Both the position numbers and the translations under genes were made by a program. Positions 2,625-18,212 of a DNA stretch of 21,387 bases are shown one piece after another; within the stretch, counting starts at the first letter, position 1; each line of letters begins with the position of its first letter. The notes below the pieces were generated by a model that saw only the letters and a program-made list of their open reading frames with translations, searched no databases and was not told the origin of the DNA. The DNA is from a virus. Where the stretch lies: IMG/VR virus record IMGVR_UViG_3300048102_000071, positions 1 to 21,387 of that record, one strand, 5' to 3'.

Positions 2625-2891
2625 ATGGATAAGAGAAAGAATAATGGAGGTGCTAGAGAAGGCGCAGGTAGACCTAAGAAGGTAGATGAGCAGAAGCTAA
2701 TTGAAAAGCTAGACAACCTAATAGATAGTGATAAGGTCATTGAGAAATTAGGTGAGATGGTTCTCAACGGAGATAGCAGAGCAATGAGCCTATACTTTGG
2801 GTATCGCTATGGTAAGCCAAAAGAATCTGTTGACATTACTTCAGACGAGGGAATAAACATTAGCTTTAAGGAGCTAATTAATTTCAAGTGA
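2625..2891 (+). CDS. terS: Terminase small subunit-like protein
   Basis: The 88-residue product starts with NNGGAREGAGRPKK, a basic glycine-rich motif common at the N-terminus of phage small terminases and related DNA-binding proteins. A helical segment and a short C-terminal strand region follow. Small terminase subunits recognise the packaging site and regulate the large subunit. It is short for a TerS, and the assignment rests mainly on the N-terminal motif and on direct coupling to TerL: its TGA (2889-2891) overlaps the TerL GTG (2888-2890). It is the first gene of the unit driven from the P1 motif. Confidence 0.75.
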   Translation: MDKRKNNGGAREGAGRPKKVDEQKLIEKLDNLIDSDKVIEKLGEMVLNGDSRAMSLYFGYRYGKPKESVDITSDEGINISFKELINFK

Positions 2892-4096
2892 TTGAGGTAA
2901 ACAAAAAATACGCTCCTATTGCGACAGATGATTCTCGATATTTTATTATAACTGGAGGTCGAGGCTCAGGAAAGTCTTTTAGTGTTAATCTGATGCTTGT
3001 GCTTCTGACGTATGAAGCTGGGCATACTATCCTATTTACAAGGTATACATTAGCCTCTGCTTATATATCTATCATTCCTGAATTTATAGACAAGCTAGAA
3101 ACCCTAAACATATTTAGTGATTTCAGAGTAACAAAAGACGAGATACGAAATAAGAGGTCAGGAAGCAAGATTGTATTCAAGGGAATCAAAACATCATCAG
3201 GAGACCAAACTGCTAATCTAAAGTCACTACAAGGTGTTACAACTTGGGTGATGGATGAAGCTGAAGAATTAGTTGATGAGGACATATTTGACAAGATAGA
3301 TTTATCAGTCAGACAACAAGACCAAAGAAACAGGGTAATGCTCATTCTAAACCCAACAACAAAAGAGCATTGGATATATAATAGATTCTTTGAGGACAAA
3401 GGAGTACAAGAAGGTCAGAATATCTGCAAGGGAAACACAACATATATACATACCACATACAAAGACAACCTAGATAATCTCTCAGAGAGTTATATACAAC
3501 AGATAGAGAATATAAAAAAACGCAGACCTGAGAAATACAAACATCAGATGCTCGGAGGTTGGTTAAGCAAAGCAGAGGGAGTTATATTCACAAACTGGAA
3601 AGTAGGTAAGTTTAAAAGAGTTGGTGTTTCTGTATTTGGACAAGACTATGGATTTGCATCAGATGAATCTACTCTTGTAGAGACTAATATCGACAAGGCA
3701 AATAAAACGATATATCTAAAAGAATGTTTCTACCTAACCCAGTTAACCACATCACAGATAGCTCAGCTTAATTTAAATCACGCAAAGACAGACCTTATTG
3801 TAGGAGACTCAGCAGAGCCTAGACTAATATCAGAGGTAAAGTCTAAAGGATGTAATCTTGTTCCTGCAATCAAAGGACAAGGGTCAATCACTTATGGTAT
3901 CAGCTTGCTTCAGGACTATGACCTTATAATAGATGAGAACAGTATCAATCTTATAAAGGAGTTGAATAACTATTGTTGGTTAGAGAGAAAATCAAATACA
4001 CCAATAGACAAATGGAATCACCTCCTTGATGCAGTCAGATACGCAGTATCGTATCAGCTTCAGAATCCAAACAGAGGTAAATATCACGTCAGCTAA
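2888..4096 (+). CDS. terL: Terminase large subunit
   Basis: The 402-residue packaging motor has an N-terminal ATPase with Walker A GGRGSGKS (23-30), Walker B VTTWVMDEAEEL (Asp123, catalytic Glu124) and a LILNPT coupling motif (152-157). The C-terminal RNase H-like nuclease has acidic residues in QDYGF (Asp253), VGDSAEP (Asp307) and NHLLDAVRY (Asp381). This is the Terminase_3/PBSX-like architecture at normal length. It pumps DNA into the prohead through the portal and cuts the concatemer. Initiation is at GTG, overlapping the TerS stop (GTGA), so translation is coupled. The portal gene is unusually far away, at 16074. Confidence 0.95.
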   Translation: MIEVNKKYAPIATDDSRYFIITGGRGSGKSFSVNLMLVLLTYEAGHTILFTRYTLASAYISIIPEFIDKLETLNIFSDFRVTKDEIRNKRSGSKIVFKGIKTSSGDQTANLKSLQGVTTWVMDEAEELVDEDIFDKIDLSVRQQDQRNRVMLILNPTTKEHWIYNRFFEDKGVQEGQNICKGNTTYIHTTYKDNLDNLSESYIQQIENIKKRRPEKYKHQMLGGWLSKAEGVIFTNWKVGKFKRVGVSVFGQDYGFASDESTLVETNIDKANKTIYLKECFYLTQLTTSQIAQLNLNHAKTDLIVGDSAEPRLISEVKSKGCNLVPAIKGQGSITYGISLLQDYDLIIDENSINLIKELNNYCWLERKSNTPIDKWNHLLDAVRYAVSYQLQNPNRGKYHVS

Positions 4097-4932: not shown

Positions 4933-4960
4933 GGGTGGGCAGAAATGTCCGCCCTTTTTT
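4933..4960 (+). terminator. Intrinsic terminator after the packaging operon
   Basis: GGGTGGGC (4933-4940) pairs with GTCCGCCC (4947-4954) across the six-base loop AGAAAT, giving an 8-bp stem with two G-T pairs, followed by six T residues (4955-4960). It is far more GC-rich than its surroundings and separates the packaging block from the tail operon. Confidence 0.88.
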
Positions 4961-4996
4961 ATTAAATTAGGGTTTAGAAAATATGTCGAAAAAATA

Positions 4997-5005
4997 CGTT
5001 ATATA
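4997..5005 (+). promoter_or_regulatory. CGTTATATA motif before the tail operon (P2)
   Basis: The motif ends three bases before the ATG at 5009 and lies just after the terminator, which is where a new promoter is expected. A TAGAAAAT sequence at 4975-4982 may stand for the upstream element seen at P3 and P4, with one base more spacing. Confidence 0.6.
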
Positions 5006-5008
5006 GTT

Positions 5009-5659
5009 ATGAAGATTAAGGTCGAAATACCAACCTCCCTTGCTGACATCAAATTATCTCAGTACAAGAAATATCTAAACATCCAGTTAAATAATGATGA
5101 TGAGAGATTTCTACAGGCTAAGATGATAGAGATATTCTGTAATATACCTCTGAAGGATGTTATGCAATTAAAATACAACGATACACAGGAAATACAAAAT
5201 ATTCTGACAAAGATGTTTGATGAGAAACCTAAGCTCGTTCAGAAGTTTAAAGTAAATGGTATTGAATATGGCTTTCATCCAAACCTTGATGACTTGTCTT
5301 TAGGTGAATATATAGACCTAGACACATACATAGGTGACTGGGAGAATATAGAGAGAGCTATGAATGTTTTATACAGACCCATAGAAAACAAATTCAGAGA
5401 GAAGTATTCTATTCAAGAATATAAAGTAGACAACTATACAAACGCTTTAGATGTTCCAATGGATGCAGTATTAAGCTCGATTTTTTTTTTGTGGAATTTA
5501 GGACTGGACTTGTCGCAAACTATGATGAGCTATTTGGAAACGGAACAGAACGTGGACTTGACAGAGTATCTAACTTCTCAACTAAATGGGGATGGTATCA
5601 ATCATTATATGGACTCTCTCAGGGAGATATTACAAGATTTAAACATATCACAGAATTGA
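5009..5659 (+). CDS. Tail assembly chaperone-like protein, zero-frame product
   Basis: The 216-residue zero-frame product has a central block YGFHPNLDDLSLGEYIDLDTYI (about 87-108, key residues Leu-Gly-Glu-Tyr-Ile-Asp) and NVLYRPI (119-125), which I recognise from Bacteroidetes phage proteins in the tail-chaperone position. After a run of ten T residues at 5481-5490 it continues for 56 more codons to TAA 5657-5659. A frame at -1 overlaps this tail and runs to 5745. The arrangement parallels lambda G/G-T: a short chaperone plus a longer frameshifted form that binds tape measure and tube subunits. ATG 5009 is chosen because of the CGTTATATA motif three bases upstream. Confidence 0.78.
   Translation: MKIKVEIPTSLADIKLSQYKKYLNIQLNNDDERFLQAKMIEIFCNIPLKDVMQLKYNDTQEIQNILTKMFDEKPKLVQKFKVNGIEYGFHPNLDDLSLGEYIDLDTYIGDWENIERAMNVLYRPIENKFREKYSIQEYKVDNYTNALDVPMDAVLSSIFFLWNLGLDLSQTMMSYLETEQNVDLTEYLTSQLNGDGINHYMDSLREILQDLNISQN
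5480..5491 (+). other. T10 slippery run, candidate -1 frameshift site
   Basis: Ten consecutive T residues (5481-5490) are read in the zero frame as ATT TTT TTT TTG. Slipping back one base after the second TTT continues as TTT GTG GAA, opening the frame that ends at 5745. Homopolymeric U runs allow both P- and A-site tRNA re-pairing. I see no strong hairpin just downstream. A sequencing or assembly indel in the run is the alternative. Confidence 0.65.
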
Positions 5660-5745
5660 ATGTACACGAATGTTTTATGATGCTATCATTTATGAAAGAC
5701 AAAAACGAACTAGAAGCAGAGCAAATAAAAAGTAAAATGAAATGA
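5488..5745 (+). CDS. -1 frame extension of the tail assembly chaperone
   Basis: In the -1 frame the 84 residues from GTG 5491 include KWGWYQSLYGLSQGDITRFKHITELNV in several conserved-looking pieces (KWGWY, GDITRF, LNVHECFMMLSF) and end in a charged helix. The fusion made by slipping on the T-run would have about 245 residues. Its TGA (5743-5745) overlaps the ATG of the next gene (5742), the same coupling seen across this genome, which supports it as a true gene end. The frame has no convincing independent start codon other than GTG 5491 directly in the run. The longer form is expected to recruit the tail tube to the tape measure. Confidence 0.72.
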   Translation, partial: FVEFRTGLVANYDELFGNGTERGLDRVSNFSTKWGWYQSLYGLSQGDITRFKHITELNVHECFMMLSFMKDKNELEAEQIKSKMK

Positions 5746-6221
5746 GCAATAACGACAATCAAGCAGTCAGAGGCTTTTACAAACTAACCGAAACAATCAA
5801 AAGTCAGTTATTAGGTGACCCTAATGTTAACACAGTCACAACAGGAGAGTTGTCAGATGTAAACCTAAACAAGCAAGACATATTTCCAATGTGTCACATA
5901 ATCATCAACAACGTAACAGATGAAGAACAAGTTCTGAGGTTTAACATCACAGTTTTAGCTATGGATATTGTTGACCAGTCTAAGGATGAGACATACGATA
6001 TATTTACAGGCAACGACAATCACCAAGACATCTTAAATACACAACTAACTGTTCTAAACAAGCTCATACAAGTGCTAAGAATGGGTCAGTTATTTACAGA
6101 CAAATATCAGCTTGATGGCAATCCTAATTGTGAGCCTTTTTATGATAGGTTTGAAAATGAGTTAGCTGGTTGGGGTGCTACAATGGATGTAATGATTTAC
6201 AATGATATATATATCTGCTAA
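5742..6221 (+). CDS. Tail terminator / tail completion-like protein
   Basis: The 159-residue product has a helix-rich start, a segment VNTVTTGELSDVNLNKQDIFPM, a strand with HIIINNV, and ends with ENELAGWGATMDVMIYNDIYIC. Alternating strands and the length (about 150) are typical of siphophage tail terminator proteins that cap the tube. I recognise this type from Bacteroidetes phages but can only infer the role. It starts inside the stop of the chaperone -1 frame and ends at TAATG with the next gene, so it is part of the coupled tail operon. A head-tail joining protein is the alternative. Confidence 0.6.
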   Translation: MSNNDNQAVRGFYKLTETIKSQLLGDPNVNTVTTGELSDVNLNKQDIFPMCHIIINNVTDEEQVLRFNITVLAMDIVDQSKDETYDIFTGNDNHQDILNTQLTVLNKLIQVLRMGQLFTDKYQLDGNPNCEPFYDRFENELAGWGATMDVMIYNDIYIC

Positions 6222-6754
6222 TGGCAACCAATAAATATATCAATCTAAAGAAGGCTTTAAACGCATACGGAAAATATGTTGTCCAACAATCAAAGTCAAA
6301 CCTAACTAAACTAAAGAAGGGTGGTGGGCCTTTGTACAATTCTATTTCTTATGAGTTAGAGTCTGAGAAAGGGTTTTTCTTTTTGGAGTTCTTAATGGAA
6401 GAATATGGAGAATTTCAAGACAAAGGAGTAAGAGGTGCAGGAGGTACTAGAAAAACCACAAGTAAATACAACAGAAAGAACAACAAGGGAAAGATATGGA
6501 AACAGAAGGGTGGCAAAAGTCCGTATAGTTTTAAACAGGGAAGAAAGCCATCAGTAAAGCATTTTAAAGACTGGGCAAAATCCAAAGGACTTAATGCCTA
6601 TGCAGTTAGGGAATCAGTATTTCGTCAAGGACTAACACCTTCATTATTCTTTTCTAAACCATTCAATAAAGGCATAGAGAAATACTCAGATGAGATTTTT
6701 AATGGCTTTGTCTTAGATATAGAAAACAAAATATTATTTGGAGAATCAAAATAA
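6221..6754 (+). CDS. HK97 gp10-like head-tail/tail completion protein
   Basis: The 177-residue product is basic and follows the HK97 gp10 pattern: an N-terminal helix (YGKYVVQQSKSNLTKL), a strand pair with LYNSISYELESEKGFFFLEF, an EYGEFQDKGVRG segment, and the C-terminal VRESVFRQGLTPSLFFSKPF motif followed by a helix. The central 70-110 insertion is lysine- and glycine-rich and probably flexible. Proteins of this family sit at the head-tail interface or tail end during assembly. It shares one base with the upstream stop and lies next to the terminator-like gene, as in canonical phages. Confidence 0.68.
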   Translation: MATNKYINLKKALNAYGKYVVQQSKSNLTKLKKGGGPLYNSISYELESEKGFFFLEFLMEEYGEFQDKGVRGAGGTRKTTSKYNRKNNKGKIWKQKGGKSPYSFKQGRKPSVKHFKDWAKSKGLNAYAVRESVFRQGLTPSLFFSKPFNKGIEKYSDEIFNGFVLDIENKILFGESK

Positions 6755-6760
6755 AACACG

Positions 6761-7789
6761 ATGTCACAGAAAGCACTTAGAAGTCCACAATTTGTAAATG
6801 TAGCAGCAGTAGCAGGGTCTTTGTCTACAGAACTTGTAATAACTATAGATGGAACTATAAGGTATCGAATAGTAAAAAATACTACACCAAATCAACTTGT
6901 TCAATATGAGTGGGCGGAGTTAGCAAGGGATTATCTTGACATTTCATTTGATGGCACATATACAGTTCAACAAATAACTGTAAATCTTATAGTTCAAGGA
7001 TATTCAGGAATTAATGGAACAGGAAATCCTATTACTCCTACTATTCTTAATACAACAGTACAAGGTGTAGGTGGTTATGGTACATTTATGGAGGGTTCTA
7101 ATCCTGCAATACCATTCCCATCACGAACTGCTCCTGCTTGGCTAGTTTGTGTCCAGTCAGATGCTGCAGACTCGGATTCTGAAATATTTGTACCTACAGG
7201 AGTTGAAGGAAAAGTTCCTTATATGAAAGGAGAGGGCAATGATTATGAGTTAACTTATGAAAATTATAGTACTACAGAAGTTATAATAGGTGGAGAAGCT
7301 CCGATTACTCAAGTTCTAAAAATAAACAGAGTTGATTGTACTAAGTATGGTCAAGGAACTAAATTTACCTTTATCAATAAGTATGGAATGTTGCAAGATA
7401 TATGGTTTTTCTTAAAACATATTAAAAGGCTTAATAGAACTACGGAGAGCTTTCAAAGAAACACATTAAGCAATGTATTTCAAATAGGAGAAAACAATTA
7501 TTATGATGTAAACGAAGCACCTAAAAAACACTTTAACACAGAAGGGACACAAAGCAATGTTTTTAATTCAGGATATTACCCTGAAGCTGCTAATTGTATG
7601 TTTGAAGAATTGCTATTGTCTAATTATGTATGGATGACAAGACCAAGCACATCAGGCTCAGGTGATGAAGTTGTTCCTGTAATGGTTAAGAGTTCTGATT
7701 TGACTTATAAAACCTCCTTAAACGAAAAGCTAATTGAATACACAATAGAATTTGAGGATGCGTTTGACTATATAAACAATGTCAGATAA
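6761..7789 (+). CDS. Tail structural protein, uncharacterised (342 aa)
   Basis: The 342-residue product is beta-rich. It has a short N-terminal domain with TIRYRIVKN and YEWAELARDYLDISFDGTY, a glycine/threonine-rich middle, then NRVDCTKYGQGTKFTFINKYGMLQDIWFFLKHI and a C-terminal strand block ending in EFEDAFDYINNVR. I have seen this arrangement in Bacteroidetes siphophages beside the large tail protein that follows, but no named family comes to mind. Position between tail completion and tape measure genes suggests a distal-tail or baseplate component. Its stop shares a base with the next ATG (TAATG). Confidence 0.6.
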   Translation: MSQKALRSPQFVNVAAVAGSLSTELVITIDGTIRYRIVKNTTPNQLVQYEWAELARDYLDISFDGTYTVQQITVNLIVQGYSGINGTGNPITPTILNTTVQGVGGYGTFMEGSNPAIPFPSRTAPAWLVCVQSDAADSDSEIFVPTGVEGKVPYMKGEGNDYELTYENYSTTEVIIGGEAPITQVLKINRVDCTKYGQGTKFTFINKYGMLQDIWFFLKHIKRLNRTTESFQRNTLSNVFQIGENNYYDVNEAPKKHFNTEGTQSNVFNSGYYPEAANCMFEELLLSNYVWMTRPSTSGSGDEVVPVMVKSSDLTYKTSLNEKLIEYTIEFEDAFDYINNVR

Positions 7790-9879
7790 TGCAGAAGTTA
7801 CAACTGTACATAGGAGGTGAAAGACTAGACTTGTTTGATGATGAAACTGTGTCAATGACACAATCTATTCAGAACATAAAAGACATAGAAAAGGTATTTA
7901 CAGAGTTCACACAACCATTTACTGTTCCAGCTAGTAGTATAAACAACAAGATATTCAAGCACTATTATAATTTTGACATATCTAATGGATATGATGCAAG
8001 ACAAAAATCATCAGCATCTATTGAGTTAAACTTTATTCCTTTTAAGACTGGATATATTCAGCTTAATGGAGTAGAGTTAAAAAAGAACCTCCCATACGCT
8101 TACAAGATTACGTTTTACGGAAACACAATAAACCTAAAAGATGTTCTTGGAGAGTCTGAATTGTCATCATTAACATTTCCTAATAGTTTAAACTTACCAT
8201 ACAACTACACAAACATTGAGTCTAAAATGACTAATGGTTTGCAAAGTATAATAGCTCCATTAATAACACATACACAAAGGCTATTTTATAATTCACATAG
8301 TTCTGCTCACAATACTGCTGGCAATTTACATTATCACAGTAGCAATTCAACAAATGGAGTTCTATGGTCAGACCTAAAATATGCTATTCGCTTATATGAG
8401 ATAATTCAAGCGATAGAAACAACATATCCATCAATAGACTTTTCTACTGATTTCTTTAGCACTACAAATCCTACGTTCTATAATTTGTATATGTGGCTAC
8501 ACAGGAAAAGTGGAGCAGTTGCATCTGAAGAACAAACAACAACAAACTGGGTTTTGGTTGACACTTGGACACAACAAAATACAGGAACTGCTATGGTAAC
8601 GAAGGTTGGTGCAAACATAATTGTAGACACAACTTTAGCTTTCAAAGGATTAATTGATTGTTCTGTAAGTATAAGTCCTGATGACCCAAGTATAAAATAT
8701 GACATCAGAATATTAAGAAACGGACAAACTTATTTTGAGAAATTTAATCAAGAAGATGTATTTAATTTAAGTCAAATATTTCCAAGCGGAACATACACAA
8801 TAGAATTAAATTCAGCAGATACTTTAGAATTTACACAAGGAAATATAGAATTTACTTTTACAGGAGAAACAGACACAATTCCTTCAGTACCTTTTACAAA
8901 CGTATTAACGAATAGCAATCTTATAGATTCGTTAAGTTCAGAATTATACTTTGTTATATCTCAACAGATACCTGAGATGAAGATTATAGATTTTCTCACA
9001 GGCTTATTTAAGATGTTTAATCTTACTGCTTATGTAGATGGAGCAGGAACAATCGTTGTTAGGACTTTAGATAGCTACTATGCGGATAGAGTAAACAATT
9101 CTAGTGGAGGTAATTTTGACATTAACAAATACCTAGACATAACTAAAAGCACAGTAGATGTTGCCCTACCATTTAGACAAGTAAACTTTAAGTATAAAGG
9201 AACAAAGACTTTTCTAGCTAATCAATACACAGAATCAAATGGCATAGGTTGGGGTGAGTTGAGATATACACAAGATGGTCAAGACTTTGATGCACCAAAT
9301 ACTGAATACAACCTAGAAGCTCCATTTGAACATATGATGTTTGAAAGGTTATCAGACCAAAATCCATCTTTAGCTCCAGCTACATTTGGCTCTACTACTA
9401 TTCAATATGGCTTTTTTGTAGACAGTAATCAGCAACCCTATTTTGGTGAGCCTTTAATTTTCTATGCAGTTAACGCATCAGCAACACCTCCAAATCTTGT
9501 TACTCCTATATATTTAAAATCGGCTTCCAATTCAGGAACTTCAGAAAGTGCATATATTATTCCATCTAATTCATTAGCTATTGAATCAAGCACAAGTACA
9601 AAGAATTTAAACTATTCTTTAGAGATTAATGAATACACAGGAGATTCTACATTTACAGGTACTCTATTTGAGGAAGAATATAAAACGTATATAAGCGATG
9701 TATTTAGTACAAGAAGGAGAATCACTAATGTGTCTGCTTTTATGCCCTTAAAAGTCCTCTATGGCCTTCAGATGAACGACTATATAACCATAGGACAACA
9801 ATCATACAAGATAAATAGCATTACAACAGATTTAACGAATGGGAAAAGCTCTCTTGAACTTCTAAACAATGTGCAATGA
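7789..9879 (+). CDS. Large tail/baseplate protein (696 aa)
   Basis: The 696-residue product begins with a compact domain (1-130) containing IGGERLDLFDDE, FTQPFTVPASS and NGYDARQKSSASIELN, followed by PYAYKITFYG and LKDVLGESELSSL. The middle is beta-rich, and a later domain (about 400-500) has MKIIDFLTGLFKMFNLTAYVD and DVALPFRQVNFKYKG. The C-terminal segment ends ITNVSAFMPLKV...INSITTDLTNGKSSLELLNN, which resembles gp27-like hub domains. A tail hub/baseplate role fits the length and the position just before the tape measure, but it is inference. The end overlaps the next mini-gene as ATGA. Confidence 0.62.
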   Translation: MQKLQLYIGGERLDLFDDETVSMTQSIQNIKDIEKVFTEFTQPFTVPASSINNKIFKHYYNFDISNGYDARQKSSASIELNFIPFKTGYIQLNGVELKKNLPYAYKITFYGNTINLKDVLGESELSSLTFPNSLNLPYNYTNIESKMTNGLQSIIAPLITHTQRLFYNSHSSAHNTAGNLHYHSSNSTNGVLWSDLKYAIRLYEIIQAIETTYPSIDFSTDFFSTTNPTFYNLYMWLHRKSGAVASEEQTTTNWVLVDTWTQQNTGTAMVTKVGANIIVDTTLAFKGLIDCSVSISPDDPSIKYDIRILRNGQTYFEKFNQEDVFNLSQIFPSGTYTIELNSADTLEFTQGNIEFTFTGETDTIPSVPFTNVLTNSNLIDSLSSELYFVISQQIPEMKIIDFLTGLFKMFNLTAYVDGAGTIVVRTLDSYYADRVNNSSGGNFDINKYLDITKSTVDVALPFRQVNFKYKGTKTFLANQYTESNGIGWGELRYTQDGQDFDAPNTEYNLEAPFEHMMFERLSDQNPSLAPATFGSTTIQYGFFVDSNQQPYFGEPLIFYAVNASATPPNLVTPIYLKSASNSGTSESAYIIPSNSLAIESSTSTKNLNYSLEINEYTGDSTFTGTLFEEEYKTYISDVFSTRRRITNVSAFMPLKVLYGLQMNDYITIGQQSYKINSITTDLTNGKSSLELLNNVQ

Positions 9880-10019
9880 TTAAGGATATAATGAACTTGC
9901 TAAAAATAGCCAAAGGCGAAACTGAGAATATCAGAATTGCACAAGGAAAATACAACCTCCCCAAAACAATAAAATCAACATACCAAAAGATTAAAAACGA
10001 ATCCAAATGGCAACAGTAA
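9876..10019 (+). CDS. Hypothetical basic mini-protein (47 aa)
   Basis: This 47-residue frame begins with the ATGA overlapping the previous stop and ends 13 bases inside the tape measure gene. The product is rich in Lys and Ile, with a segment ENIRIAQGKYNLPKTIKS followed by YQKIKNES. The bridging position between two well-supported genes is the main evidence. It may help couple translation of the tape measure gene rather than have its own structural role. Confidence 0.5.
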   Translation: MIKDIMNLLKIAKGETENIRIAQGKYNLPKTIKSTYQKIKNESKWQQ

Positions 10020-11767
10020 GAGAATTTGAATTAGATGTAGATACTAATAAAGCAGAAAAGAATGTCGATGATTTAGCAAAAAGTATTGACAAGTTAGCTG
10101 AATCTATTTCTGAAAGTAATAAAGAAACTGCAGAAGGATTAAAAGATGTAGAGAAAGCATCTCAGGAAACTGCTGGTGGTGTTAGAAAGATAGGAGGTGC
10201 ATTAAAAGCTGCTGGTATTGGTTTAGCTATTGCTGCATTTGCACAACTTAAAGAGGTGTTTGAACAGAATCAGAAAGTAGCTGATGCTTTTAGTACAGTA
10301 TTTGAGTTTTTAAGTATAACATTTAATGACTTCTTTAAGTTTATTGAAAGTAATATTAGTGTATTGAATGGCTTTTTTAAATCAGCCTTTGATGACCCTA
10401 AGCAATTAGTAATAGATTTTGGTGTTGCTATTAAAGATAACCTCATTGAAAGATTTAATTCGTTGCTTGACACATTAGGGTTTTTAGGTAGTGCATTAGT
10501 CAAGGTATTTAGTGGAGATTTTAAAGGAGCTTTAGAAGATGTTAATTCTGCATCTGCTGAATTGTTTGATGTTGTTACTGGTGTAGATGATAGTTTTAAC
10601 AAAGTAATTGAAACGACTAAGGATGTTGTGTCAGGAGTTGTTGAATACACAAAGGCAACAGTAGAATCTGCTGCTGAAAATGTACAATTAGCGAGAACTG
10701 CTGAGTTGGCTGCGGTAGCTAATCAAGGACTTATAGAAAAGTATGATTTACAAGCTGAAACACTAAGACAAGTAAGAGACGAAGAAAGAAACACTATTGA
10801 AGATAGAAAGAAAGCCAATGATGAGTTAAGTGCAGTTTTAGATGAGCAGGAAAAGGCTATGATGGCAAACGCTAATGCTATCCTTGCAGCAGCACAAGCT
10901 CAGTTTGATAAAAACAATAATGATGAAAATGCTATTGCATTACAAGAAGCCAAAAATGAATTGGCAGCAGTAGAAGCTCAGATAGCTGGATTTAGGTCAG
11001 AACAGAAAGCTAATGACCTAGCATTAGACAGAGAACAATTAGAATTGAACGAAGCTCTTAGTGCTGGAGTAGCTGAGAGAAGCAAAGCTGAAAATGACTT
11101 TACTGCAGAGCAGATAGATAATGATGTGTTAAGATTACAAACACAACTAGAAAATGCTCAAAAAGAAAAAGAAATAGAAACAAAAAGATTAGAGACAAAA
11201 AGAGATTTATACAAAGAAGGAACACAGGCTTATGTCGATGCAAATAATGAACTGTTAGCTTTCCAACAAGAGAATGGTAATGCTCAACTACAAATAGAAA
11301 AAGAGTTAAATGTCGCAAAAGCAGAAGTTATATCATCTGCTCTTTCAGGAATTGCAGACCTTGTTGGCAAGGACTCAAAATATGGTAAGGCTATAGCTAT
11401 TGTACAAGCGATTAGAGACACTTTCGCAGGGGCAACTAAGGCATTAGCTCAAGGAGGTATATTTGGAGCAATAGGAGCAGCAGGAATAGTCGCATCAGGT
11501 ATTGCGAATGTCAGAAGCATAACTGCTACACCTGACCCTGAACCTCCTGCTGGACTCGGTGGTGGTGGTGGTGGTAGTGCTAGTGTTCCTATCCCAGCAA
11601 TCCCAGCACCTCCATCTTTTAACATTGTAGGTCAGACAGGAACAAATCAGTTGGCTGATGCAATCGCAGGACAAGCACAAAGTCCTGTAAAAGCCTTTGT
11701 AGTATCTAGTGATGTAACTACTGCACAAAGCCTAGATAGAAATATTATAAAAGGTGCAAGTTTATAA
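10007..11767 (+). CDS. Tape measure protein
   Basis: The 586-residue product has the expected composition. It has an N-terminal helical domain with a hydrophobic patch (GALKAAGIGLAIAAFAQL, about 64-81), a long coiled-coil region (220-440) rich in Ala, Glu, Gln and Lys, a hydrophobic Gly/Ala segment (IFGAIGAAGIVASGIANV, 485-502), a PEPP hinge with six glycines encoded by a (GGT)6 run at 11558-11575, and a C-terminal PVKAFVVSSDVTTAQSLDRN block. Tape measure proteins set tail length at about 0.15 nm per residue, suggesting a tail near 90 nm. It is short for a siphophage. It is the last gene of the tail block and is followed by the P3 motif. Confidence 0.85.
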   Translation: MATVREFELDVDTNKAEKNVDDLAKSIDKLAESISESNKETAEGLKDVEKASQETAGGVRKIGGALKAAGIGLAIAAFAQLKEVFEQNQKVADAFSTVFEFLSITFNDFFKFIESNISVLNGFFKSAFDDPKQLVIDFGVAIKDNLIERFNSLLDTLGFLGSALVKVFSGDFKGALEDVNSASAELFDVVTGVDDSFNKVIETTKDVVSGVVEYTKATVESAAENVQLARTAELAAVANQGLIEKYDLQAETLRQVRDEERNTIEDRKKANDELSAVLDEQEKAMMANANAILAAAQAQFDKNNNDENAIALQEAKNELAAVEAQIAGFRSEQKANDLALDREQLELNEALSAGVAERSKAENDFTAEQIDNDVLRLQTQLENAQKEKEIETKRLETKRDLYKEGTQAYVDANNELLAFQQENGNAQLQIEKELNVAKAEVISSALSGIADLVGKDSKYGKAIAIVQAIRDTFAGATKALAQGGIFGAIGAAGIVASGIANVRSITATPDPEPPAGLGGGGGGSASVPIPAIPAPPSFNIVGQTGTNQLADAIAGQAQSPVKAFVVSSDVTTAQSLDRNIIKGASL

Positions 11768-11798
11768 ATGCAAAATAGTAATTTAAAATCGTTATATA
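11768..11798 (+). promoter_or_regulatory. Bipartite motif before the prohead protease (P3)
   Basis: ATGCAAAAT (11768-11776) and CGTTATATA (11790-11798) are separated by 13 bases, and the second element ends three bases before the ATG at 11802. Read as TGCAAA-N17-TTATAT, this has sigma-70-like spacing. P4 has the same elements at the same distances. Confidence 0.7.
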
Positions 11799-11801
11799 GT
11801 T

Positions 11802-12710
11802 ATGAGAATAGTTGAACTAATATTAGATGAAGCTCAAGAGATGATGGGCATAGATGCCATCTCTATTGTAGAAAGTCCAGCAATACAAGAAGATTTTGTT
11901 GCTTTAAATTCAGACGAAATTAAACTGGCTGAAGTATCTAAGGAAAAGAAAATACTAATGGGTGCTTTGCTTGTACCAAACAAACCCATATACCGAAAGA
12001 ACGGAGATGATGAGTATTATATATATTTCTCAAAGGACACAATAGCAAAGGCTTCTCAGTTATATCTAAAAAATGGCTATCAAGGAAATTCTACTTTAGA
12101 ACACGCAAGTGCTTTACAAGGTTTGACGTTGGTTGAAAGTTGGTTAGTAGAAGATGAGGTCAATGACAAGTCAAGAAAGTATGGAATGAACGTGCCTGTC
12201 GGAACTTGGATGGGTGCAGTAAAAGTAGACAACGATGAAGTATGGAACGAATATGTTAAGACAAATAAAGTTAGGGGTTTTTCTATTGAGGGTTATTTTG
12301 CAGACAAGATGGAACAATCTGATAAATCGAATAAAGCAGATATGGAAGAAGTAGAAGCTGCACAGTTGCTTAGTGCTATCGAGAAGATAGTCAGAGGCGA
12401 AAAGGTAGAATTGGGTATTGTAGATGATTTAGAAAAATTAAGACAAGAATATATGAATACTTATGCAGATACTCGTGAGGTTAGAAAATTAGGTGTTTTA
12501 CTAAAGAAAAAAGCAAGAAGTGCTTTTGATGATTTAAGTAAAACAGAAAATAAAATAAAACAAGCGTTAAAAGAATTTGAGCAAAAAGCAAATGATTTGG
12601 GTATAAAACCAGCAAGTGTAAAAGAATATAAAAATTTAAGTGATAGTGCAAAATCTATTCCTGATTATTTAAGAATATACAAACAAGCAATGAAACTGGA
12701 TACATTATAA
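11802..12710 (+). CDS. XkdF-like prohead protease with C-terminal helical extension
   Basis: The 302-residue protein has an N-terminal IDAISIVESPAIQEDFVALN motif, then a serine protease core: EHASALQGLTLVESW with His101, and KVRGFSIEGYF with Ser161. This His/Ser pair in order is the signature of the XkdF/Peptidase_S78_2 head maturation proteases, which cut scaffold and capsid precursors. The core ends near residue 168. Residues 180-302 form an extra helical tail that begins with GEKVELGIVDDLEKLRQEY and resembles the adjacent 128-aa protein. The CGTTATATA motif sits three bases before ATG. It is followed by the scaffold-like and capsid genes, fitting a head-maturation role. Confidence 0.85.
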   Translation: MRIVELILDEAQEMMGIDAISIVESPAIQEDFVALNSDEIKLAEVSKEKKILMGALLVPNKPIYRKNGDDEYYIYFSKDTIAKASQLYLKNGYQGNSTLEHASALQGLTLVESWLVEDEVNDKSRKYGMNVPVGTWMGAVKVDNDEVWNEYVKTNKVRGFSIEGYFADKMEQSDKSNKADMEEVEAAQLLSAIEKIVRGEKVELGIVDDLEKLRQEYMNTYADTREVRKLGVLLKKKARSAFDDLSKTENKIKQALKEFEQKANDLGIKPASVKEYKNLSDSAKSIPDYLRIYKQAMKLDTL

Positions 12711-12721
12711 AATAAGTAAAA

Positions 12722-13108
12722 ATGAAAACACCACAAGAGTTAGATAAAATCTACAATAGATTACCAAAGGAAAAGATTGAGCTATCTGTTGAAAAGGTAG
12801 AGTTGGCTCAATATGATTTTACCGAATTTAAAAAACAATATGATAAAGCGTTTTCTAATTACAGAACAGATTTCAGAAAATCTATAAATCAAGCAAAACA
12901 AAGTGCTGATTTATATTTTAAAGTCTTAAATGATATATTACAAGATGCAGATAAATTAGCTGATGATTTTGGTAACAAAGCAGAAGATTTAGGCTTAGAA
13001 TATAGAGGAACTAAACCTTATCAACAATTTCAAGAAATTAAAAAAATTATATTAAGTGCAATATCTAACGCAAAAGAAAAGCAAAGAGATATTTCTAAAA
13101 TAATGTAA
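12722..13108 (+). CDS. Helical protein resembling the protease C-terminal tail (128 aa)
   Basis: The 128-residue protein is nearly all alpha-helical. It begins with MKTPQELDKIYNRLPKEKIE, then EKVELA (24-29), a long helix, and a segment FGNKAEDLGLEYRG (83-96). The protease tail carries the same elements in the same order: EKVELG at 200-204, then FEQKANDLGIKPAS at 259-272, with similar spacing. This suggests paralogy through duplication or domain exchange. The function is unknown. A prohead internal protein or a protease partner fits the place between protease and scaffold, but that is inference. Confidence 0.6.
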   Translation: MKTPQELDKIYNRLPKEKIELSVEKVELAQYDFTEFKKQYDKAFSNYRTDFRKSINQAKQSADLYFKVLNDILQDADKLADDFGNKAEDLGLEYRGTKPYQQFQEIKKIILSAISNAKEKQRDISKIM

Positions 13109-13127
13109 GTCTTAATTTAGTGATACA

Positions 13128-13283
13128 ATGAATAAAAACACTAACTACATACCTAGTCGTTCATCACCTAGAGGTGCATCAAGAGGATGTCTATGTAGAG
13201 ACAAAAACATCTACTCAAGGAAGTGTTGCAATGGAGATATAATAGCACAAGGCATAGGCAACATTACAAGAACCAGTTATTAG
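13128..13283 (+). CDS. CLC/CC mini-protein (51 aa)
   Basis: This 51-residue frame encodes NYIPSRSSPRGASRGCLCRDKNIYSRKCC... ending in AQGIGNITR, with Cys21, Cys23, Cys33 and Cys34 and an Arg/Ser-rich start. I recognise this RGCLC...YS+KCC.G...AQGIG.I pattern from other Bacteroidetes phage genomes, where it lies in structural gene blocks. The four cysteines could bind zinc or form disulfides. The low-complexity basic N-terminus and position between the protease and the scaffold genes suggest a minor virion component, but this is inference. Confidence 0.72.
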   Translation: MNKNTNYIPSRSSPRGASRGCLCRDKNIYSRKCCNGDIIAQGIGNITRTSY

Positions 13284-13295
13284 AAAACGCTGAAA

Positions 13296-13326
13296 ATGCA
13301 AAATTTAATTTAAACATCGTTATATA
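13296..13326 (+). promoter_or_regulatory. Bipartite motif before the scaffold/capsid unit (P4)
   Basis: ATGCAAAAT (13296-13304) and CGTTATATA (13318-13326) have the same 13-base gap as P3, and the ATG at 13330 again follows after three bases. The flanks are also similar (TTTAA tracts in the spacer). It precedes the scaffold and capsid genes, where strong late expression is expected. Confidence 0.72.
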
Positions 13327-13329
13327 ATT

Positions 13330-13917
13330 ATGAAATCAAGTGAAATGATAAATAATATCAAAACGCTTCTTAACATCGAGGTCAAACTTGAGGAAATGAA
13401 GCTCGAAAATGGCACAGTTGTAGAAGCTGAATCATTTGAGAAAGGAAAGGAAATTTTCATCAAAACAGATGATGAAAAAGTCGCAATGCCTGTTGGGGAA
13501 TATCTTCTTGAAGATGGTCGATTGGTAGTTGTTGAAGAAGAAGGAATCATCGGTGATGTCCGAGAGGTATCTGATGAAGTTCCTGCAAAGGAAAATGAAG
13601 AAGGTGAAGAAATCACTTCTGACTTAGAAGAAGAAAAAGAGGAAATGGCTTATGCAACTAAAGAGGAATTATCTTCTGCGGTTGAGGAAATGAAATCTAT
13701 GATTGAAGAAATCAAAGCTATGGTATCTCCTAAAGAAGAAATGTCAGACGATGACGAAGAACTTTCTGCAAACATTAAGGAAGAATTATCTGCACCAGCT
13801 GCTGAGCCAATTAAGCACAGTCCTGAAGCAGAATCTGCGCAAGTAGAAAAAAAGGTTTTTGCTCAAAGTAAAGTAAGAACGACCCTCGATAGAGTAATTA
13901 GTAAATTAAATAAATAA
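13330..13917 (+). CDS. Scaffold-like acidic protein upstream of capsid
   Basis: The 195-residue product has a small N-terminal beta domain (GTVVEAESFEKGKEIFIKTDDEKVAMPVGEYLLEDGRLVVVEEEGIIGDV in pieces, residues 28-75). A very acidic, low-complexity and coiled-coil region (85-150) follows, then a basic C-terminus (KVRTTLDRVISKLNK). Acidic helical middles with a basic end that contacts the capsid are typical of phage scaffolding proteins. The gene is directly upstream of the capsid gene and downstream of the protease. It has no protease or structural motif of another family. The start is fixed by the CGTTATATA motif three bases before. Confidence 0.72.
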   Translation: MKSSEMINNIKTLLNIEVKLEEMKLENGTVVEAESFEKGKEIFIKTDDEKVAMPVGEYLLEDGRLVVVEEEGIIGDVREVSDEVPAKENEEGEEITSDLEEEKEEMAYATKEELSSAVEEMKSMIEEIKAMVSPKEEMSDDDEELSANIKEELSAPAAEPIKHSPEAESAQVEKKVFAQSKVRTTLDRVISKLNK

Positions 13918-13920
13918 AAA

Positions 13921-14880
13921 ATGAGTTTAGAAAAAGTAAATCTCGCAACAACCACAAATATCACGACCACGTATGCTGGGCAATTTGCTGGTGAATATAT
14001 TGCTGCCAGTTTGCTCTCGTCAAGCACTATTGATGATGGGGGTCTTACAGTTAAGGGCAATATCGCATATAAAGAAGTAATCAAGAAGTTAGCTACTACT
14101 GAGTTAGTATCTGCTGCATCTTGTGACTTCACTCCAACTTCTACTGTAACACTTACAGAGAGAATTTTGCAACCTACAGAGCTACAAGTTAACTTACAAC
14201 TTTGTAAGAAAGACTTCATTAGCGATTGGGAAGCTCAATCAATGGGCTTTGGATTAGCACAAACACTACCTCCTAAGTTCTCTGACTTTATGATAGCTCA
14301 CGTAGCTGCTGAAGTTGCTCAATCAAATGAGTTGAACATTTGGCAAGGTGATACTGCTGCTGCTTCAAACAACGCTTATGATGGATTTGAGAAGTTGTTA
14401 GCTGCTGATGCTGGAGTTGTAGATGTTGCTGCAGTTGCAGGAGGTCTTGATGCTGCAAACATTATCGCTGAATTAGGAAAAGTTGTTGATGCAATTCCTT
14501 CTGCTTTATATGGCAAGGAAGATTTGTATATCTACATCGGTTCAGCTGCTGCTAAGTTCTACGTTCAAGCATTAGGTGGATTTGCTGCTAGCGGTCTTGG
14601 AGCTAATGGTGTGAACAATATGGGAACACAATGGTGGAACAATGGAAGTTTGACTGTTAACGGAGTTAAAATCTTTGTTTGCCCAGGTATGTCTGTCAAC
14701 AAGATGGTAGCTGCTCAAAGAAGCAACTTGTACTTCGGTACTGGACTTCTTAATGACACTCAAGAAGTAAGAGTTCTTGATATGCAAGATTTGGATGGTT
14801 CACAGAATGTCAGAATGGTTCTCAGATATACTGCTGGTGTCCAGTTCGGAGTTGCTGAAGATGTAGTTCTTTACGCTTAA
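13921..14880 (+). CDS. Major capsid protein (HK97 fold, probable)
   Basis: The 319-residue product lies immediately after the scaffold-like gene and has the composition of a capsid protein: Ala/Gly/Thr-rich, with few charged runs. Features include an N-terminal flexible arm, a mixed strand region (LTERILQPTELQVNLQLCKKDFISDWEA), a long helix, a DLYIYIGSAAAKFYVQAL segment, and a C-terminal domain with NNMGTQWWNNGSLTVNGVKIFVCPGM and VRMVLRYTAGVQFGVAEDVVLYA. The length matches HK97-type capsid proteins and the C-terminal strand fits the A-domain. The four-base gap from the scaffold gene and the strong terminator after it support high-level co-expression. Confidence 0.85.
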   Translation: MSLEKVNLATTTNITTTYAGQFAGEYIAASLLSSSTIDDGGLTVKGNIAYKEVIKKLATTELVSAASCDFTPTSTVTLTERILQPTELQVNLQLCKKDFISDWEAQSMGFGLAQTLPPKFSDFMIAHVAAEVAQSNELNIWQGDTAAASNNAYDGFEKLLAADAGVVDVAAVAGGLDAANIIAELGKVVDAIPSALYGKEDLYIYIGSAAAKFYVQALGGFAASGLGANGVNNMGTQWWNNGSLTVNGVKIFVCPGMSVNKMVAAQRSNLYFGTGLLNDTQEVRVLDMQDLDGSQNVRMVLRYTAGVQFGVAEDVVLYA

Positions 14881-14897
14881 TTTTTGGATATTTTAAA

Positions 14898-14914
14898 TTA
14901 TTGATAATCAATAA
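14898..14914. repeat. 7-bp dyad TTATTGA/TCAATAA
   Basis: TTATTGA (14898-14904) and TCAATAA (14908-14914) are perfect inverted repeats around a three-base centre, in the gap after the capsid gene and before the terminator. It could be an operator or a weak RNA hairpin. AT-rich dyads of this size arise easily by chance here. Confidence 0.3.
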
Positions 14915-14952
14915 ATTAGCTATTCAGATAAGGATAAATAATAACACGAAAG

Positions 14953-14988
14953 AGGGTAGGTGGAGTTTACTACCTACCCTTTTTTTTT
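14953..14988 (+). terminator. Intrinsic terminator after the capsid gene
   Basis: AGGGTAGGT (14953-14961) and ACCTACCCT (14972-14980) form a perfect 9-bp stem around a ten-base loop, followed by an uninterrupted run of T to 14988. It separates the capsid unit from the tube gene. Confidence 0.92.
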
Positions 14989-15003
14989 AAAAAATAAATA
15001 ACT

Positions 15004-15552
15004 ATGGCTTGTGCAATAACATCAGGAAGAAAAGTACCTTGCAAATCAGCATTTGGAGGCATCAAAAGAGTTTACTTCTGTAACTACGGAGATGCTACTA
15101 TTACGTTGGATGCAACTACTGACGAAGTTGAGACTATCACTATGGATGGTTCTACAACATTTTTTCAATATGATGTAAAAGGAAATTCTAGTCTTACAAC
15201 TACAATAACTAGTTCAAGAGACAACGGAACAACTTTTTACACTCAGACTCTCGCATTGACTCTACCTTACCTAGACAACCTAACTAAAAACGAAGTTCAG
15301 TTGTTAGCTGCTGGTAGACCACAAATGATTGTAGAGGATTATTACGGAAACAGATTCTTCTGTGGATATGAGAATGGTATGGACTTGACTGGTGGCACTA
15401 TCGTAACTGGAGCTGCTGCTGGAGACCTATCAGGATTTACATTGACAATGGAAGGAATGGAAGAATTTGCTCCATATTTCTTAGAGAGTGCAGTTACTAT
15501 TAGTGTTGGTTCTCAGATTGACCCAACATCTGCTGCAGTACCTCAACCTTAA
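15004..15552 (+). CDS. Major tail tube protein (probable)
   Basis: The 182-residue product starts MACAITSGRKVPCKSAFGGIKRVYF and has the alternating pattern of a siphophage tube subunit: FQYDVKGNSSLTTTITSSRDNGTTFYTQTLALTLPYL, then LLAAGRPQMIVEDYYGNRFFCGYENGMDLTGG and a C-terminal FTLTMEGMEEFAPYFL (given here in pieces). Two-beta-sheet tube proteins of about 180 residues are common, and I recognise this exact type from Bacteroidetes phages. It is the only gene flanked by intrinsic terminators on both sides, so an independent transcript or tuned read-through from the capsid unit would set its high expression. No CGTTATATA motif precedes it. Confidence 0.75.
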   Translation: MACAITSGRKVPCKSAFGGIKRVYFCNYGDATITLDATTDEVETITMDGSTTFFQYDVKGNSSLTTTITSSRDNGTTFYTQTLALTLPYLDNLTKNEVQLLAAGRPQMIVEDYYGNRFFCGYENGMDLTGGTIVTGAAAGDLSGFTLTMEGMEEFAPYFLESAVTISVGSQIDPTSAAVPQP

Positions 15553-15575
15553 TATTTAATCATATTAAAATCAAG

Positions 15576-15600
15576 ACCCTACTTCGGTAGGGTTTTTTTT
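15576..15600 (+). terminator. UUCG-loop intrinsic terminator after the tube gene
   Basis: ACCCTAC (15576-15582) and GTAGGGT (15587-15593) form a 7-bp stem closed by the very stable UUCG tetraloop (15583-15586), followed by T residues to 15600. Confidence 0.93.
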
Positions 15601-15633
15601 GTTTTAGACTTTTACAAATTCAGACAATTCTGT

Positions 15634-15642
15634 CGTTATATA
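15634..15642 (+). promoter_or_regulatory. CGTTATATA motif before the portal unit (P5)
   Basis: The motif ends three bases before ATG 15646, immediately downstream of the UUCG terminator. At the distance of the P3/P4 upstream element lies TTACAAATT (15612-15620), which matches ATGCAAAAT at six of nine positions, keeping C-A-A-A. Confidence 0.62.
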
Positions 15643-15645
15643 AGT

Positions 15646-16077
15646 ATGATTGTATTAACAACATCAGCAACTGCTCAAACACTTAAAGTAATACCTAGAC
15701 AATATGATAGTGTATTTAAGATGTCAGTTCGTGATGATTCTACAAATGTTACTGTAGAATACGATGTGAATAGTGCTACAATATCAGGAAACTATTATAC
15801 GTTTGATAATGTATTTTCTCCTGCTTTAGTCGAGGGACATTTTTATGATTTAGAGTTATATGCTGCCTACGACTTTTGGAATTTAAACTACTCTTTATGG
15901 CAGAATTATGATGTCTTATGGCAAGATGATGCAGGATTTAAAGGGATAATATACAAAGACAGAATATTTTGTACTGACCAAGATATCGAGCAATTTGAAA
16001 ATGATTACTATCAACTTAATGAAGGTCAATATACACCTAGCACATCAGGAAATAATGACTACATTGTAACGTTATGA
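15646..16077 (+). CDS. Putative structural protein (143 aa)
   Basis: The 143-residue product has a beta-rich first half and a distinctive block YDFWNLNYSLWQNYDVLWQDDAGFKG, followed by IIYKDRIFCTDQDIEQFENDYYQLNEGQYT (shown here in parts). I have seen the IYKDRIFCTDQ motif in Bacteroidetes phage proteins of unknown function near head-tail genes. An N-terminal immunoglobulin-like strand pattern would fit a head decoration or a minor virion protein. It is the first gene after the P5 motif, and its TGA overlaps the portal ATG, so it is translated together with the portal. Confidence 0.6.
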   Translation: MIVLTTSATAQTLKVIPRQYDSVFKMSVRDDSTNVTVEYDVNSATISGNYYTFDNVFSPALVEGHFYDLELYAAYDFWNLNYSLWQNYDVLWQDDAGFKGIIYKDRIFCTDQDIEQFENDYYQLNEGQYTPSTSGNNDYIVTL

Positions 16078-18212
16078 AGAATAAAAGAACAAGAAATAAA
16101 TTAGGACAATTCTCAACAGAATCAAAAGTTTCTGAATATGGATTTGTAAACCTAAGCACTTACACCAGTCCTGAGATTAAGGAAGTTAAAAACAAGGGAT
16201 GGGTAGAATACGGAGCAGACAATGACTATTTTCAGTTTCTTATAGACAGATACAATGGTAGTCCAACTAATAACGCTGCAATCAACGGAATCAGTCAAGC
16301 TATCTATGGTAAAGGTCTAAACGCTACAGACTCAAACAGAAAGCCAAACGAATATGCTCAGATGATTTCTTTGTTTCACAAGGATTGTGTCAGAAAGCTA
16401 TGCTATGACCTGAAGCTAATGGGTCAATGTGCTATGCAAGTAATATATTCTAAAGACAGAAGTCGTATTGCACAGATAGAGCATTTCCCTATCGAGACAT
16501 TAAGAGCAGAAAAGGCAGATGAAAAAGGCGAAGTTCCAGCATATTACTATTTCAAAGACTGGTCTAAGATAAAGCCAAGCGATAAGCCAAGAAGAATACC
16601 AGCTTTTGGTAAGTCTAAAGAGAACATAGAAATTATGTATGTTCAACCATATCGTGCAGGGTTCTATTACTATTCTCCTGTGGATTATCAAGGTGGATTA
16701 CAGTATGCGGAACTAGAAGAAGAAATTTCTAATTTTCATTTGAATAACATTATGAATGGACTAAGTCCATCAATGCTTATAAACTTCAATAATGGTACAC
16801 CTAACCAAGAAGAAAGACAACTAATAGAAAGCAAGATTGCAAACAAGTTCTCAGGAACATCTAATGCTGGTAAATTCATTCTAGCATTTAATGACAATAA
16901 AGAAGCATCAGCAGATATAACACCTATTCAGTTGTCGGATGCGCACAATCAATACCAATTCCTATCAGACGAATCTTCTAAGAAGATAATGGTAGCACAC
17001 AGGATTGTCAGCCCAATGCTCTTAGGTATTAAAGATGGTTCAGGGTTAGGCAACAATGCAGATGAGATTAAGACCGCATCTCTTTTGATGGATAACACAG
17101 TTATTAGACCTTTTCAGGAGCTTTTAATTGATTCCTTTGACAAGATACTAGCTTACAATGATATCGCTTTAAACTTATACTTTACGACCTTACAACCATT
17201 AGAGTTTACAGAGGTAGATTCTGAGGTACAAGATGAGGAAACCATCGAAGAAGAAACAGGGGTTGAGATGGAGACTGAGTTAAAGAAACCTTGTCAAGCA
17301 GGATATGAGCAATATGGAATGAAAATGAAGAACGGAAAGAAAGTTCCTAATTGTATTCCTATTCAGAATAGTGAAGATATCAAGCTAAAAGAGATTGATG
17401 GAGAAACTGTTTACAAGACACAAGAAGAAGCGGAAGCTGCTGCTATAGAAAAAGGATGTAAAGGCTATCACGAACACGAAGAAGATGGTATTATTTGGTT
17501 TATGCCTTGTGAATCTCACGATGAAATCCCAAAACTATCAGAAGAACAAGGAGGCTTAATGCTTGAACATCTAAAAGGAGAAAAAATAGATGATGAATGG
17601 GTTATTACAGATGTTAGAGATGTCTGTGATGATAATGTTAGTGATGAAGAATGGGTGAATGCTAGTATTGTAAATAAAGAAACAACATTAAATAAAATAA
17701 AAAAAGTCATTGGTTTAGCTGATGAAATTAAATCTAAAAAAAATGGTAGTTCTTTTAGCACTTTAGATTCTAATAATTATAAAATTAGATACCAATACTT
17801 TAAAAAATCAAATGCTAAGTCCATACAGAAAGATGCTGATGGAAAAAGAAAAAGTTCTTATAAGACAAGAAAGTTTTGTGAGAATATGATGGATTTATCA
17901 AGAGCTGGAACAGTTTATACTTTAGAAGATATTGATAAAGCAAGTAGAGCAGGGGTGAATGGTGGTTTTTCACCATCAGGCAAAAAAACGTATGATTTAT
18001 TTAAATATAAAGGAGGCTGCTACTGCCGTCACGCTTGGAAGCAAGTTTTATATAGAAGGAAAAAAAGTGCTGATGTTAGTGAAAATTTAAAAGATTATAG
18101 AAGAACTGGAAACATTCCATCTACTTATAAACGAAATCCTTGGGGTAGTAAAGATGCAAAAAGAGCAACATTTGACTTACCTAATCACGGTTCATTGAAA
18201 TACAAATACTAA
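16074..18212 (+). CDS. Portal protein with long C-terminal Cys/His modular extension
   Basis: Residues 40-380 form the portal: WVEYGADNDYFQFLIDRYNGSPTNNAAINGISQAIYGKGL, FPIETLR, then a clip and stem with FHLNNIMNGLSP and HRIVSPMLLGIKDGSGLGNNADEIKTASLLMDNTVIRPFQ (each quoted in parts). This is the usual phage portal fold, the dodecameric channel for DNA. At 712 residues it is 200-300 longer than typical. The extension has three modules: C-x-AGYEQYGMK...VPNC (407-427), GCKGYHEH...FMPCESH (461-482, with Cys462, His466, His468, Cys479, His482), and a 570-663 domain with RAGTVYTLEDIDKAS and YKGGCYCRHAW. The first two look metal-binding. It is far from TerL, and its TAA shares a base with the connector ATG. 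Confidence 0.85.
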   Translation: MKNKRTRNKLGQFSTESKVSEYGFVNLSTYTSPEIKEVKNKGWVEYGADNDYFQFLIDRYNGSPTNNAAINGISQAIYGKGLNATDSNRKPNEYAQMISLFHKDCVRKLCYDLKLMGQCAMQVIYSKDRSRIAQIEHFPIETLRAEKADEKGEVPAYYYFKDWSKIKPSDKPRRIPAFGKSKENIEIMYVQPYRAGFYYYSPVDYQGGLQYAELEEEISNFHLNNIMNGLSPSMLINFNNGTPNQEERQLIESKIANKFSGTSNAGKFILAFNDNKEASADITPIQLSDAHNQYQFLSDESSKKIMVAHRIVSPMLLGIKDGSGLGNNADEIKTASLLMDNTVIRPFQELLIDSFDKILAYNDIALNLYFTTLQPLEFTEVDSEVQDEETIEEETGVEMETELKKPCQAGYEQYGMKMKNGKKVPNCIPIQNSEDIKLKEIDGETVYKTQEEAEAAAIEKGCKGYHEHEEDGIIWFMPCESHDEIPKLSEEQGGLMLEHLKGEKIDDEWVITDVRDVCDDNVSDEEWVNASIVNKETTLNKIKKVIGLADEIKSKKNGSSFSTLDSNNYKIRYQYFKKSNAKSIQKDADGKRKSSYKTRKFCENMMDLSRAGTVYTLEDIDKASRAGVNGGFSPSGKKTYDLFKYKGGCYCRHAWKQVLYRRKKSADVSENLKDYRRTGNIPSTYKRNPWGSKDAKRATFDLPNHGSLKYKY

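Follow-up and report, generated by a model that had tools for sequence, protein, structure and literature searches.

Candidate sigma factor-dependent late promoters and predicted leaderless late mRNAs in phages of marine Bacteroidetes

Gene blocks and repeated elements in the window

The window, a 21,387-nt stretch of viral DNA (IMG/VR record IMGVR_UViG_3300048102_000071), carries five putative late gene blocks on its + strand. The first block (2625–4096) holds a gene in the terS position (2625–2891), named from that position and having a PHROG hit of unknown function, together with terL (2888–4096), which is assigned from PHROG hits. The second block (5009–11767) contains a tail assembly-chaperone-like gene at 5009, a label that comes from weak matches, genes of unknown function and a tape-measure-like gene at 10007. 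The third block (11802–13108) encodes an XkdF-like head maturation protease (Pfam Peptidase_S78_2, E = 4.6e-14) and a small gene; the fourth (13330–14880) combines a scaffold-like gene with a major capsid-like gene, names that are taken partly from position; and the fifth (15646–21385) contains a small gene, the portal gene, the gene at 18212 and a tail fibre gene, and runs past the window's end.

The window's + strand holds five exact copies of the nonamer CGTTATATA (at 2585, 4997, 11790, 13318 and 15634) and its - strand none. Dinucleotide shuffles of the window average 0.11 copies and never exceed 1; the original prediction had named these five positions, and the count bears them out. Moreover, the pattern CGTTATATANNNATG has 4 exact matches in the window and its reversed control has 0, and a de novo 9-mer count restricted to the regions upstream of ORFs recovers CGTTATATA, while a count by strand asymmetry alone returns coding bias and nothing else. 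Four of the copies (4997, 11790, 13318 and 15634) are separated by 3 bases from an ATG (at 5009, 11802, 13330 and 15646), opening ORFs of 216, 302, 195 and 143 aa, respectively, and a 31-nt stretch separates the copy at 2585 from the ATG at 2625, as had been described. The repeated presence of CGTTATATA at the starts of gene blocks is confirmed.

In all five window copies, an AAA box, which the original prediction had not mentioned, lies at -18 to -16 from the C of CGTTATATA, as read directly from the sequence. Candidate late promoter 1 (2567–2593), upstream of the terS-terL block, has its AAA at 2567–2569 and CGTTATATA at 2585–2593, with a predicted start at A2597 and a 28-nt leader to the ATG at 2625. 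For the other four, the predicted start is the A of the ATG itself: promoter 2 (4978–5005; AAAA at 4978–4981, CGTTATATA at 4997–5005) would start the tail block at A5009; promoter 3 (11772–11798; AAAA at 11772–11775, CGTTATATA at 11790–11798) the head protease block at A11802; promoter 4 (13300–13326; AAAA at 13300–13303, CGTTATATA at 13318–13326) the scaffold-like and major capsid block at A13330; and promoter 5 (15616–15642; AAA at 15616–15618, CGTTATATA at 15634–15642) the block of the pre-portal gene and portal at A15646. All five are on the + strand.

Two of the copies, 4997 and 15634, follow terminators, in agreement with the earlier claim: a terminator-like hairpin (4933–4954) with a T run forms a predicted intrinsic terminator at 4933–4964, before promoter 2, and another (15573–15596), again with a T run, forms one at 15573–15600, before promoter 5, both on the + strand. 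A strong hairpin and T run (GGGTAGGT...ACCTACCC) is also present at 14954–14988, after the capsid-like gene; the gene at 15004 lies behind it and has no CGTTATATA promoter, so its expression would depend on read-through or on a promoter of some other kind. The protein encoded at 2092–2577, just before promoter 1, weakly matches PF08299, the C-terminal helix-turn-helix of DnaA (22.8 bits, below the cut-off), and this DnaA-C-like gene was weighed as a candidate reader of the motif.

A bipartite element conserved in related phages

A terL search provided 80 related viral contigs (731 kb in total), in which CGTTATATA occurs 142 times on the + strand versus 2 times on the - strand. In a profile of 118 distinct sites, the AAA at -18 to -16 from the C is present in 98–100%, and an A/T-rich stretch lies immediately 5′ of the C. 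Across these relatives the spacing between the AAA box and CGTTATATA is constant, whereas the distance from the motif to the ATG is usually 3 nt, 4–7 nt in some orthologues and 24–38 nt at terS. The original prediction had taken the distance to the start codon as the fixed quantity; that part does not hold in the relatives, where the constant one is the distance between the two boxes. With the AAA box present in all five window copies and in the relatives, the conserved unit appears to be a bipartite, promoter-like element consisting of AAA(A), about 15 bp and CGTTATATA.

The placement of the element is conserved when upstream regions are collected for each window gene without selection for the motif. 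In particular, the motif is found upstream of terS orthologues in 57 of 76 distinct cases, of orthologues of the 5009 gene in 56 of 67, of the 11802 protease in 11 of 15 and of the scaffold-like gene at 13330 in 7 of 9. For the remaining window genes, several of which have few orthologues, no orthologue carries it upstream. Three long relatives of 26–37 kb (G001, G011 and G014) share the full set of five promoters at matching positions, that before the 15646 orthologue among them, and have no such promoters in their region of sigma and replication-type genes. A conserved motif upstream of the late operons that is absent from the early region is the arrangement of the phiEco32 and 7-11 kind.

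Two of the long relatives carry more copies. G014 has one additional motif copy without an AAA box, and G001 has additional terS and 5009 promoter copies at the contig's other end. In L374 and L375 (G001, 37.4 kb), the terS and 5009 promoter regions at both ends are similar, not identical, which suggests that the assembly is mixed or that two related phages are joined in tandem.

A candidate ECF-type sigma factor

In the isolates P12024L and P12024S, a gene annotated as sigma-70 region 2 lies a few genes upstream of terL. Of 10 related records searched with PF04542, 8 contain a match that falls short of the threshold, and the sigma-like ORFs of the relatives are about 157–170 aa long and are located early in the genome, a few kb upstream of terL. 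Such a gene is also present in near-identical counterparts of the window, whose exonuclease is 98% (L095) and 95% (L096) identical to the window's own; in L095, the sigma-like gene ends about 450 bp before the position equivalent to the window's first base, so the window's own copy most likely lies outside the contig.

Matches to ECF sigma models cover most or nearly all of the protein's length at scores below the cut-offs; for example, the L039 protein scores 15.9 bits against PF04542 (cut-off 24) and 21.8 against TIGR02937 (cut-off 42.9), the latter nearly full length. The P12024L homologue scores 25.2 bits against PF04542, above the cut-off; a curated-model cut-off is a limit of sensitivity and not a defining trait of the ECF family. 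A search of PDB sequences with the sigma profile gives weak matches, the ECF factor SigE among them. The AlphaFold model (pLDDT 83.6, pTM 0.46, with the placement of the domains relative to each other not fixed) consists of a helical domain (1–78), a disordered linker (80–93) and a helix-turn-helix domain (98–154), and ECF sigma factors are at the top of the Foldseek and VIA lists. Taken alone, the sigma2 domain superimposes on SigR at 2.4 A over 71 residues, and the sigma4 domain on M. tuberculosis SigC at 1.6 A over 60 residues. The computed fold therefore identifies the relatives' small protein as a predicted ECF-type sigma factor; it has sigma2 and sigma4 only, within the roughly 160–200 aa of that family. 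In a scan of genome contigs, one relative was found, in a Campylobacterales MAG contig that is possibly contamination, and it does not indicate the host. A literature search of open-licence papers found no description of the CGTTATATA promoter or its sigma factor.

Promoter type follows the sigma clade

Where contigs lack the exact nonamer, the sites seen have a variant instead: CGATATATA in the L063 group and TTATATATT in the L117 group. On a tree of 113 distinct, promoter-labelled sigma sequences, the three labels (CGTTATATA, CGATATATA and TTATATATT) require 2 changes, the least possible, compared to a minimum of 23 in shuffled labels. Promoter specificity thus tracks the phage sigma factor through few independent events; such co-segregation is expected of a trans-acting factor, and with two type changes only, it would also be seen with other phage genes that are linked. 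P12024L, P12024S and their relatives, whose sigma factor is more distant, have a fourth type, AAAACAAA...CGTTAATATA; the P12024 phages have 13 sites of the form AAAACAAA...CGTTAATATANN-ATG in the same register.

Position of the start codon and the predicted transcription start

The A of the ATG lies at +12 relative to the first base of the box in 94 distinct main-type contexts (CGTTATATA, T-type), 5 of the CGATATATA type (A-type), 13 of the P12024 type (P-type) and 17 of the TTATATATT type (G-type), making +12 the commonest ATG position in all four promoter types. Because the TTATATATT box was aligned on the TATAT it shares, its mode at 12 reflects in part how it was aligned. Independent of alignment, the first A of the AAA box precedes the ATG by 30 nt in both the main and TTATATATT types. 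Among 114 main-type sites whose ATG is not at +12, 108 have a purine there, a preference that is less clear in the other types, whose sets include chance matches. Because the sites are related by descent, these counts are not independent trials.

The main type has a tail towards longer distances (+13 to +16, about 21 contexts), and its only positions below 12 are five contexts with the ATG at +10 (L128, L163, L177, L208 and L210). Either the start site is able to shift or the starts in those five contexts differ. The gene concerned begins MELVKI or MIKKVKI and lies behind a terS-type promoter; the five contexts look like one gene inserted behind the terS promoter.

The register of ATG and purine at +12 points to transcription starting at position 12, which is the A of the ATG at the commonest spacing, in which case the late messages very probably begin at the AUG itself. 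The comparative evidence accordingly favours one part of the original prediction, that the motif belongs to a promoter and that four operons would give leaderless mRNAs. Its reading of TTATAT as a sigma-70-type -10 box fares less well: taking TATATA as the hexamer would put the start site beyond the AUG. The whole of CGTTATATA, with its C at about -12, makes a better -10 element, within a putative bipartite promoter of the ECF type.

An inverted repeat in the terS leader

The terS leader (2598–2624, + strand) contains an inverted repeat, ATTGAAT...ATTCAAT, which ends beside the ATG and whose arms covary in the relatives (18 cells changed on both sides versus 6.9 when shuffled, with 0 of 500 shuffles as high). 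Arm pairs in the relatives include TTGAAT/ATTCAA, TTAGT/ACTAA, CAGT/ACTG and AATTAA/TTAATT, and there is a partial third arm. The repeat may form an RNA hairpin that covers the terS start, or it may be an operator in the DNA; no G-U intermediates occur in the arms across the relatives, which leans towards DNA. In L012, L022 and L048, terS apparently starts with GTG and the repeat is changed to AATTAAT/ATTAATT.

Alternative explanations

The same sigma-dependent promoter could start transcription a few nucleotides upstream of the ATG, or at multiple sites, and thereby produce very short leaders. The T-type contexts with the ATG at +13 to +16 would have leaders of 1–4 nt, and the five contexts at +10 also fit a less rigid start; yet four promoter types have their mode precisely at +12, sites below it are few, and the purine at +12 persists where the ATG is elsewhere, leaving this a rather improbable variant. 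Far less probable, and the least so of the alternatives, is that the motif is a 5′ UTR signal for translation initiation, a Shine-Dalgarno substitute in a phylum that lacks one, as the original prediction had allowed. The usual gap of 3 nt would suit such a signal, as would the upstream A-rich context that Bacteroidetes use in place of a Shine-Dalgarno sequence (PMC6847099). The motif is nevertheless missing before the internal genes of the same blocks, lies 24–38 nt from the terS ATG, and keeps its distance to the AAA box in orthologues where the ATG moves to 4–7 nt; the translational reading was dropped on these grounds.

Two further alternatives concern the polymerase, and both are very unlikely. 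The yeast mitochondrial promoter is a nonamer, ATATAAGTA, with +1 at its last A, and promoter 5, reading TTATATAAGTATG, is strikingly like it, which would be consistent with a phage single-subunit RNA polymerase. PF00940 has 0 matches in 22 records, a weak argument in that the control genomes are negative as well; the ORFs of more than 600 aa in the three long relatives occupy the positions of the window's phrog_38559-type, portal and tail fibre genes, and the AAA box and the co-segregation suit a sigma factor better. Alternatively, a housekeeping or ECF sigma factor of the host could read the promoters, since host sigma factors are present in every infected cell. The element does not match the Bacteroidetes housekeeping promoter TTTG/TANNTTTG (PMC6847099): TANNTTTG was not found at -7, and promoters 2–5 lack TTTG in the box and in the gap between the box and the ATG. 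Moreover, the promoter type shifts with the clade of the phage sigma factor. A phage-encoded sigma factor is the most likely reader of the late promoters.

Discussion

In the proposed mechanism, host RNA polymerase would transcribe the early region, from which the phage sigma factor is made; the host core polymerase, directed by this ECF-type protein (sigma2 and sigma4), would then read the five late promoters, each consisting of AAA(A), about 15 bp and CGTTATATA as the -10 element, with a start 12 nt after the C. Four transcripts (the tail, protease, scaffold/capsid and portal blocks) would begin at or about 1 nt from the A of the AUG and be leaderless, while the terS transcript would retain its leader of about 28 nt. 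From the motif, the AAA box, the orthologous placement, the co-segregation, the ECF fold and the start-codon register that were computed here, we infer the sigma–promoter binding, the exact start site, the late timing and the leaderless translation. Counted against the mechanism are the spacing of the AAA box from the presumed start, at about 30 nt less by a few bp than that of textbook ECF promoters, the location of the window's own sigma gene outside the contig, and the scores of the sigma-like proteins under the Pfam and NCBIfam cut-offs. Overall, we consider it likely that these are late promoters of Bacteroidetes phages, read by a phage sigma factor, and that four of the five transcripts are leaderless. 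The relatives are the one guide to the window's host, which would be a marine Bacteroidetes.

SigW-type promoters have a -10 element that begins with CGT, and the phage element begins likewise. The candidate sigma factor resembles bacterial ECF factors of the SigW, SigR and SigE kinds in being a small sigma2 plus sigma4 protein whose model fits solved ECF structures. It differs in that no anti-sigma gene was noticed and in scoring below curated ECF cut-offs, and its promoters differ in their spacing, which is slightly shorter, and in having an AAA box in place of the GAAC-type -35 element. Nonlabens (Persicivirga) phages P12024L and P12024S (gp35/gp33) have homologous late genes and a sigma70-region-2 protein upstream of terL, and share AAAACAAA-CGTTAATATA-ATG promoters in the same register; their sigma factor has diverged (PHROG 31712), their -10 box has an extra base, and the promoters are unannotated in their records.

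The closest known kind is that of the late sigma factors gp36 of phiEco32 and gp47 of phage 7-11. The middle and late promoters of phiEco32 have one element, tAATGTAtA, located 6–8 bp from the start, and they lack a -35 element because gp36 has no homology to sigma region 4 (PMC8948821). The two systems are alike in that a phage sigma factor steers the host core polymerase to few promoters through a short A/T-rich element near the start; a sigma4 domain in the protein and an AAA box in the promoters set the flavophage system apart from that of gp36. Gp47 of phage 7-11 is the phage sigma factor that reads bipartite late promoters, GTAAtg-16-aCTA (PMC8948821). Bipartite late promoters, and a sigma factor and promoter that diverge between related phages, are common to both, although the sequence and the host phylum differ; the passages covered contain no statement on leaderless late mRNAs of phage 7-11 (PMC8948821). 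The present system differs from those of gp36 and gp47 in its promoter sequence, its sigma factor and its fixed AUG register.

On balance, we lean towards the broader proposition that a widespread family of marine Bacteroidetes phages runs its whole late programme from about five promoters of its own sigma factor, with a specificity that changes in step with that factor, and produces leaderless capsid and tail mRNAs. Such mRNAs would be unusual in this host group, which is mostly leadered; in F. johnsoniae, 87% of the transcripts from probable promoters have leaders longer than 10 nt (PMC6847099). If true, the choice of promoter would switch on a phage-specific route of translation, and leaderless messages would raise the question of how, in hosts without Shine-Dalgarno sequences, late genes with massive expression are translated starting at a bare AUG. 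For hundreds of contigs of uncultured marine phages, sequence alone would predict the late transcription system, with late promoters tied to a sigma gene filed under unknown function (PHROG 31712). The isolate P12024L and its host offer a testable system for the proposed pairing of promoter and sigma factor, and the phages as a group may supply natural sigma–promoter pairs for studying how ECF specificity changes.
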